Below are positions 37,725 to 50,297 of a DNA stretch of 55,404 nt, in pieces. A program made the position numbers and the translations under genes. The notes under the pieces were generated by a model, which had not been told where the DNA came from, searched no databases, and saw nothing but the letters and a program-made list of their open reading frames with translations. Within the stretch, counting starts at the first letter, position 1. Each line of letters begins with the position of its first letter. This DNA comes from Armatimonadota bacterium. GTDB lineage: Bacteria > Armatimonadota > UBA5829 > DTJY01. The stretch spans positions 1 through 55,404 of the forward strand of contig JAIMAU010000014.1 of NCBI GenBank assembly GCA_023511795.1. Direction: 5' to 3'.

Positions 37725-37821
37725 GGGGGTGGATGGGGCCTGGTGGCCCTCCTGGTCTTCAAAACCTGTGTGAGGCCTGAAGAAGGTCTCGGGTGCGTTC
37801 GATTCGCACACATCCCCGCCA
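37725..37821 (+). tRNA. selC: tRNA-Sec (anticodon TCA)
   Basis: The 97 bases, CCA encoded at 37819-37821, fold into the long-armed selenocysteine tRNA. An acceptor of 7-8 pairs (GGGGGTG/CATCCCC, the eighth pair G/A unpaired) stacks on a 5-bp T stem (GTGCG/CGCAC, loop TTCGATT). The 6-bp D stem GGGGCC/GGCCCT with a 4-base loop is typical of Sec. The anticodon loop is CTTCAAA with TCA in the middle, reading UGA. The variable arm has a 7-bp stem, GAGGCCT/AGGTCTC. The anticodon stem contains a T/T mismatch (CTGGT/ACCTG). Discriminator G73 and the proximity of selA support the call. Confidence 0.93.
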
Positions 37822-38006: not shown

Positions 38007-38023
38007 TAGCAAAACTTGATTGA

Positions 38024-38131
38024 ACGCCTTTAAGTTGGTCCTGTGAGGCCAACAAGGGTGTGCGTGTATGCACAAAGCTTGTAATAGCAAGATCACGCCT
38101 CCTTGCTAACCTCAGCAGGGGGGCGTTTTTT
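38024..38131 (+). promoter_or_regulatory. PyrR-dependent transcription attenuator of the pyr operon
   Basis: Three mutually exclusive structures are readable. The anti-antiterminator that PyrR-UMP binds has lower stems ACG/CGT and CCTT/AAGG, the upper stem GTTGG/CCAAC (38034-38038 with 38049-38053) and the conserved loop TCCTGTGAGG. The antiterminator pairs CAAGG and GCGTG (38053-38057, 38062-38066) with CACGC and CCTTG (38094-38098, 38101-38105). The terminator stem uses 38095-38107 with 38114-38126 and is followed by TTTTTT. When UMP is plentiful PyrR holds the first hairpin, freeing the terminator; otherwise the antiterminator forms. The sequence matches the Bacillus-type PyrR site closely. 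Confidence 0.92.
38095..38131 (+). terminator. leader terminator of the pyr operon
   Basis: A 13-bp stem (ACGCCTCCTTGCT / AGCAGGGGGGCGT, with two G-T pairs) and a 6-base loop are followed by six T. It is the terminator used when PyrR-UMP is bound. Confidence 0.92.
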
Positions 38132-38170
38132 GTGCCTGGAAAATGTGCAATTTTGCGCTTTAAATACTAA

Positions 38171-49413: not shown

Positions 49414-49453
49414 GTATGCTATTCTCAGCCGAATAAAAATATTAAAAAGGGAA

Positions 49454-49486
49454 AGGGATGGGTAGGGGGCACGGCTACCCATCCCT
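49454..49486 (-). terminator. probable terminator of the riboswitch-controlled small gene
   Basis: A perfect 12-bp stem, AGGGATGGGTAG/CTACCCATCCCT, with a 9-base loop, is followed on the minus strand by TTTCCCTTTTTAAT. It lies about 155 bases after the stop codon of the 64-residue gene. Confidence 0.6.
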
Positions 49487-49641: not shown

Positions 49642-49836
49642 TCAGTCCAAAGCACGGATCTGAGTAACTCTGTCCAGTCGAACTTCCTCAGTGTCGCCGA
49701 TTATATACGCTCCATAGAGCGGAATGAACTGCAGGTCCTCAACCTGCAAGACTTTGCTATGTTCTTGGCCTAGACGGTCGGTCCAGCTTATCCAACAGTT
49801 CTTTCCGATGTATTGTTTGGCTTCAGGTATCGTCAT
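49642..49836 (-). CDS. small protein of unknown function under c-di-GMP riboswitch control
   Basis: This 64-residue soluble protein (MTIPEAKQYIGKNCWISWTD at its start) appears as a small beta-barrel: NCWISWTDRLGQEHSKVLQVEDLQF, then YIIGDTEEVRLDRVTQIRAL. The pattern recalls SH3-like or PilZ-like small barrels but is too short to assign. The strong ribosome binding site GGAGGAGGG and the c-di-GMP riboswitch upstream show that it is a real, regulated gene. A role in motility, attachment or surface change would be expected from c-di-GMP control; this is inference. Confidence 0.7.
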   Translation of the reverse strand: MTIPEAKQYIGKNCWISWTDRLGQEHSKVLQVEDLQFIPLYGAYIIGDTEEVRLDRVTQIRALD

Positions 49837-49864
49837 TTTCGGTCCCTCCTCCTTGCAACCAGCT

Positions 49865-49978
49865 AAAAAGAAAACCAGGCTGCTGAAACCTCAGTCGCGC
49901 GCACTGCTATATTCGAATACACTTTTTTTGGTAGTGGCTCAGCGCGCCTATAATGCGACTGTCGTTTCGGCAGCCTGG
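49865..49978 (-). terminator. riboswitch expression platform: long terminator with competing antiterminator
   Basis: On the minus strand, 49978-49956 pairs with 49897-49875 (20 of 23 positions) around inner stems such as CGCGC/GCGCG, and the stem is followed by TTTTCTTTTT (49874-49865). The first third of the 5' arm, 49973-49968, can instead pair with CGGCAG at 50008-50003, and 49978-49975 with CTGG at 49990-49987, giving an antiterminator. The two folds exclude each other. The start codon of the small gene lies 28 bases after the T-tract. Confidence 0.75.
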
Positions 49979-50031
49979 CTGTCATACCAGCATTCAGCTT
50001 CCCTGCCGCACCCCCGCTATCAACTTCTTTC

Positions 50032-50122
50032 GGGAGACCTTCGGCTATCTACCGCTGCCTACTGGGTTAGATCCATGGCTTTGCGTCTCACCCTTTCGAG
50101 TGATTTGCCTTTGTCGTCCGCG
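50032..50122 (-). ncRNA. c-di-GMP-I (GEMM) riboswitch aptamer
   Basis: Reading the minus strand, ACAAAGGCAAATCACTCGAA, then the GAAA tetraloop on a 6-bp stem (TCACTC/GGGTGA), then GACGCAAAGCC, match the GEMM core. TCTAACCC and GGTAGATAGCCG correspond to the tetraloop receptor and the conserved RGGxAGCC strand. Aligned to the Vibrio Vc2 aptamer without gaps, the base equivalent to G20, which selects c-di-GMP over cGAMP, is G. The aptamer is about 55 bases upstream of the terminator described separately. Confidence 0.85.
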
Positions 50123-50297
50123 ACGCTATTCACTTTTTGCTTACACTGAGATTATGCCATGCCACTCAAAAACTCGTGCTGTAAGGATTGCTAGTTTTAT
50201 TCGAGATGGTAATGTTTTAAACCAAAGCAAATGTGGGCAAAAAACAACAGATGAAGGAAACCGAGCTATTTGCTTCATCATAAAGGAGGTACTTGCC

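Follow-up and report, generated by a model that had tools for sequence, protein, structure and literature searches.

The window, the whole 55,404-nucleotide stretch of DNA from an uncultured Armatimonadota bacterium that was analysed here, carries on its minus strand a gene for a protein of 64 residues behind a riboswitch leader. Elsewhere in the window there are a selenocysteine tRNA at 37725-37817 on the plus strand (RF01852, 69.4 bits) and a PyrR binding site element at 38023-38133 on the same strand (RF00515, 54.9 bits, barely above the gathering threshold of 54), the latter upstream of genes resembling a pyrimidine operon. The parts of the riboswitch locus are, in order of transcription:

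50152..50198, minus strand: conserved promoter block AAACTAGCAATCCTTACAGC - N20 - GGCATAAT, conserved upstream of homologues in the class
49966..50119, minus strand: c-di-GMP-I (GEMM-I) riboswitch aptamer, from cmscan with RF01051
about 49875..49979, minus strand: terminator hairpin, from folds, from arms that are complementary in the GEMM-bearing loci and from covariation
49865..49874, minus strand: U tract TTTTCTTTTT of the terminator, read directly
49844..49852, minus strand: ribosome binding site GGAGGAGGG, read directly
49642..49836, minus strand: gene of the 64-residue small-barrel protein, stop included, from coding substitutions, homologues and AlphaFold
49444..49485, minus strand: probable transcript end, GGGATGGGTAG...CTACCCATCCC then TTTCCCTTTTT, read directly; the next gene is convergent

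The ribosome binding site GGAGGAGGG stands seven bases ahead of the ATG. Compared with its homologue in genome G003, to which it is 76% identical at the DNA level, the open reading frame had 36 of 47 differences in third codon positions, with 33 silent and 7 replacement codons. Because third-position and silent changes prevail in this comparison, the frame is coding; against G001 there were six silent codons and no replacement. The hairpin with its U-rich tail downstream of the gene makes the unit look monocistronic, and the next gene lies on the plus strand. The protein had no sequence match in Pfam (at E up to 1), NCBIfam or PDB. Two weak KOW matches (E 0.034) were taken as chance. The first-pass annotation, which had described a transcriptional switch controlling a single small unknown gene, agrees with the missing family match and with the leader fold described below.

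The GEMM-I aptamer that had been proposed on the minus strand was recovered by a covariance-model search of all of Rfam with 73.5 bits for RF01051 (gathering threshold 35, E 1.3e-12). The match spans the full model, positions 1-87, with a 70-nt insertion within the P3 loop, and the pocket bases GCAAA, CGCAAAG and CUGCCGAA equal the consensus. G001, G003 and other relatives carry the same element. The riboswitch is therefore an ordinary case of a known class, and its assignment is well supported. Model position 11 is a G, at 50109 of the window, which corresponds to G20 of the Vc2 aptamer, the base that chooses c-di-GMP over cGAMP. From the sequence of the pocket we infer that c-di-GMP is the ligand. 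Sensing of 3',3'-cGAMP instead, as by GEMM-Ib aptamers, would be in keeping with a layout that resembles the pilM cGAMP switch and with one homologue (L011 of genome G024) that has an A at the selecting position; yet A at this position is the mark of GEMM-Ib, and a G was found in the window, in G001, G003 and G017 and in the copy B leaders read, which makes cGAMP a very unlikely ligand here. The aptamer of L011 (1282-1379, plus strand) stands before the same gene, and its A for G may indicate a shift towards cGAMP.

In the minimum free energy (MFE) fold of the leader, 49978 to 49875 form a hairpin in which 11, 5 and 7 pairs are stacked in three runs, and TTTTCTTTTT comes next; the terminator stem of 23 positions claimed earlier was thereby reproduced. 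The fold has a z-score of -3.55, and none of 100 shuffled sequences reached equal stability. The 5' arm of the terminator (49979-49966, GCCAGGCTGCCGAA) is the 3' strand of the aptamer, while its 3' arm occupies 49890-49875 (GGTTTCAGCAGCCTGG). Because one strand serves in both structures, aptamer and terminator are mutually exclusive. The calculated energies were -100.5 kcal/mol for the terminator state and -88.2 kcal/mol for the state with the aptamer enforced, i.e. the aptamer pairs cost 12.3 kcal/mol, and the aptamer-enforced fold leaves the 3' arm of the terminator and the U tract unpaired. A separate antiterminator, which the first-pass annotation had placed between the two, was not seen in the leader folds and has to be dropped. 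Thus the aptamer itself is the antiterminator and the leader has two exclusive folds with no third element.

This arrangement is conserved. In 12 of 13 GEMM-bearing loci 11 to 12 of 12 arm positions pair without gaps, and a U tract comes after the later arm. The ungapped scan missed the arm only in L009, where GGCAGACCTGGC and a U run are visible if one bulge is allowed. Two pairs of the arms have changed on both sides. When the arms were slid against each other by -3 to +3 positions, the best register was 0, with 97.2% of the cells paired compared with 15-51% in the slid registers; the rows are related and four of them lack GEMM, so that this covariation is supportive and not a probability. 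The U tract is present in the GEMM-bearing homologues and missing from those without GEMM. Paralogues that lack the aptamer, namely G005 and copy A of family f3, often keep the stem but have lost the U tract. The series from aptamer present to aptamer lost to U tract lost is a clear example of riboswitch control decaying in paralogues.

In f3 an extended terminator stem forms a very long rod, whose shaft, TTGCC..TGATCAG...TTGATC..GGCAA, is conserved and was found 50-300 nt upstream of the gene at L014-L019, L022 and L051-L057; the rods of copy A share a conserved tip, CCTCACGGTGACACCGATAGG. The element between the arms of these leaders was considered as a second aptamer and rejected, since it folds as the top of a single very long rod; a search of Rfam at E up to 5 gave no match.

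Transcription would be controlled as follows. RNA polymerase would start about 25-30 bases ahead of the aptamer, at a start site deduced from the promoter block. At low c-di-GMP the 3' strand of the aptamer, CCAGGCTGCCGAAAC, would pair with GTTTCAGCAGCCTGG to form the long hairpin with its U tract, and transcription would end ahead of the gene. With c-di-GMP in the pocket that includes G50109, the aptamer would keep its 3' strand, so that the lower stem of the terminator could not form and the 64-residue protein would be made. The energy model prefers the terminator by 12 kcal/mol and, therefore, switching must be kinetic and ligand-dependent.

We infer from the leader sequence and by analogy that bound c-di-GMP turns the gene ON. 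The 5' arm of the terminator being shared with the 3' strand of the aptamer and the U tract behind the stem are the features of an ON-type leader, and the pilM cGAMP switch of Geobacter metallireducens, in which aptamer and terminator are mutually exclusive, is ON (PMC9262584). Some GEMM-I switches are OFF, like Cd1 of C. difficile, where aptamer and terminator coexist (PMC9262584). An OFF switch with c-di-GMP stabilising the terminator is nevertheless most improbable for the window, as coexistence is impossible with a 5' terminator arm that is the 3' strand of the aptamer, and the leader folds contained no alternative antiterminator. At the level of sequence the aptamer, the shared strand, the U tract, the coding gene and the conservation of the whole layout are in place. 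Taken together, the 64-residue protein is very likely driven by a monocistronic, c-di-GMP-induced transcription switch.

The promoter block lies on the other side of the aptamer. Its probable -10 element is GGCATAAT, ending at 50151, and its position puts the likely start of transcription shortly before the aptamer. The sequence AAAC(C/A)GGTA(T/A)TCCnCACAGC - N20 - GGCATAA precedes most homologues of the class whose upstream sequence could be read, whether they have an aptamer or not. A search with AAACnGGTAWTCCnCACAGC-N20-GGCATAA yielded 36 matches in 28 genomes (L096-L125) compared with one for a reversed control pattern. Seventeen of the 36 sit 15-76 nt upstream of a GEMM element, and seven of these 17 precede genes outside the protein family. 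The block was not picked up by a sigma-70 scan and fits neither the sigma-54 nor the sigma-28 consensus. The distribution suggests that the block may mark a regulon common to c-di-GMP-controlled genes. Across the class the block also stands before some proteins that are predicted to be secreted, and several f3 genomes have tandem GEMM aptamers behind it (L109, L112, L120, L123).

In the genome of the window there are five domain matches to GGDEF and three to PilZ as well as four GEMM elements, the one in the window and three others; c-di-GMP signalling is therefore present. All four GEMM elements precede small open reading frames. On contig C24 a c-di-GMP-I element of the GGC type (L001, 143-609, plus strand) stands before a gene for the anti-sigma-28 factor FlgM (PF04316, E 3.4e-13), which suggests that c-di-GMP may directly control the flagellar sigma factor. 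The remaining two, L002 (1145-1594, minus strand) and L003 (1188-1637, minus strand), precede uncharacterised frames of 76 and 78 residues. The 78-residue frame is rich in cysteine, and the next frame, HD-GYP-like by eye, lies on the same contig stretch as a GGDEF match.

The protein family occurs in 114 of 291 Armatimonadota genomes (about 40%) and in 22 of the 28 genomes of the window's class. With the alignment as query 22 loci were found, those with a named source being from Armatimonadota, Armatimonadetes or Chthonomonadia; a query of the relatives' contigs with the single protein found none. For twelve of the 35 family genes of the class a canonical GEMM-I element lies on the same strand no more than 600 bases upstream, where 0.01 would be expected by chance; these loci share ancestry and are not independent events. 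They are spread over three families of the class, and L009, a case at a contig edge, adds a fourth. The search for homologues behind other GEMM elements, which had been put forward as a check on the riboswitch, was thus positive. Outside the class, the flanks of the gene gave no match to any Rfam family, GEMM included, at the loci examined; in G047, a complete genome, the family gene and a GEMM element are about 170 kb apart. As far as tested, the link to GEMM belongs to the window's class and not to the whole family. Because the family is far wider than its association with GEMM, the protein is likely to have its own function, which was put under c-di-GMP control only in this class. The neighbouring genes revealed no partner and no consistently conserved gene across the loci compared. 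By eye they vary by family (a DNA methylase, Tad pilus genes, a kinase/response regulator), and only a membrane protein recurs, in some of the genomes.

AlphaFold with 39 homologues predicted a short helix (residues 3-7) and five strands with a pLDDT of 95.7. The nearest solved folds in VIA were Rof/YaeO (Z 8.2, 57 residues, rmsd 2.0) and WYL domains (8.0), followed by the archaeal Hfq of M. jannaschii (Z 7.8, rmsd 1.3 over 50 residues) and GerQ (7.5); best Z values of 7-8.2, as obtained for Rof, WYL, Hfq, Sm and GerQ, are common among small barrels and do not imply function. Foldseek with the predicted model gave no match at E below 0.001. The family members sampled are acidic with a pI of 4.6-5.7. 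Thus the protein is predicted to be a single acidic small beta-barrel of the Sm/SH3-like type. From fold, acidity and regulation we propose that the barrel would bind a protein or RNA partner at high c-di-GMP. Binding of a partner would be the most likely mode of action, as no enzyme family is recognisable in the protein.

By sequence the protein is neither Hfq nor Rof, and it may work like either. The likeness of the model to the Sm/Hfq fold (M. jannaschii Hfq, rmsd 1.3 over 50 residues) would allow for an additional Hfq that acts as an Sm-like regulator by binding RNA; we regard this as unlikely, since none of 39 members matched Hfq (PF17209), a profile comparison by hhalign was negative, the pI is acidic and the genome's single match to Hfq, a true one, is encoded at another locus. 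A Rof-like protein, i.e. an acidic binder of Sm fold that would inhibit Rho or a similar machine when made at high c-di-GMP, is doubtful to the same degree. Rof/YaeO is the best match of the predicted fold, the protein shares its acidity, and a profile match of 16 columns pairs AGETRELRLDKITSFS in the last strand with IGDTEEVRLDRVTQIR of E. coli Rof, but with an hhalign probability of only 36%. Moreover, the Rof model of Pfam (PF07073) is unmatched in the 39 members and at this locus, and reports of Rof come only from Pseudomonadota (PMC11018626). Rof contacts Rho via a longer N-terminal helix including Y13 and D14 (PMC11018626), whereas the predicted helix comprises only residues 3-7. The broader notion that c-di-GMP, directly via the riboswitch, switches on a Rof- or Hfq-like adaptor from a new family, acidic and of Sm fold, which would regulate the termination of transcription or the fate of RNA, is a speculative one that we consider rather unlikely. 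If true, the second messenger would be relayed to a global RNA-level regulator rather than to a structural or motility gene.

In the literature library searched we found no paper on riboswitches of Armatimonadota, nor on an Armatimonadetes riboswitch together with c-di-GMP. The kind of switch is known; the new part is its target, an undescribed family of small barrels tied to c-di-GMP in one class of Armatimonadota. This offers an entry point in the form of an easily expressed protein of 64 residues that occurs in about 40% of the genomes of the phylum and is under c-di-GMP control in one class, and the shared promoter motif marks a likely c-di-GMP regulon.

Compared with known proteins, the barrel resembles Hfq and Sm proteins in its predicted short helix followed by five bent strands, with an rmsd of 1.3-2.0 over 50-57 residues. 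In contrast to them it is acidic, has neither the YKHA motif nor a family match, and comes from a genome that encodes a real Hfq elsewhere. With Rof/YaeO it shares the predicted small Sm-like barrel and a similar motif in the last strand, yet it comes from another phylum and lacks the Pfam ROF match and the longer N-terminal Rho-binding helix. The leader resembles the pilM cGAMP riboswitch (GEMM-Ib) in a terminator built from the 3' strand of the aptamer, in exclusive folds and in a putative ON response; it differs in having a G instead of an A at the ligand-selecting position and in its target gene. The aptamer corresponds to the c-di-GMP-I class (RF01051) with a full-length model match, the GAAA tetraloop, a receptor-like CUAA/UAUGA, the conserved GCAAA and CGCAAAG pocket and the 3' strand GGCUGCCGAA. 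Unlike the known c-di-GMP-I switches it has a 70-nt extension of P3 and regulates an undescribed protein family.
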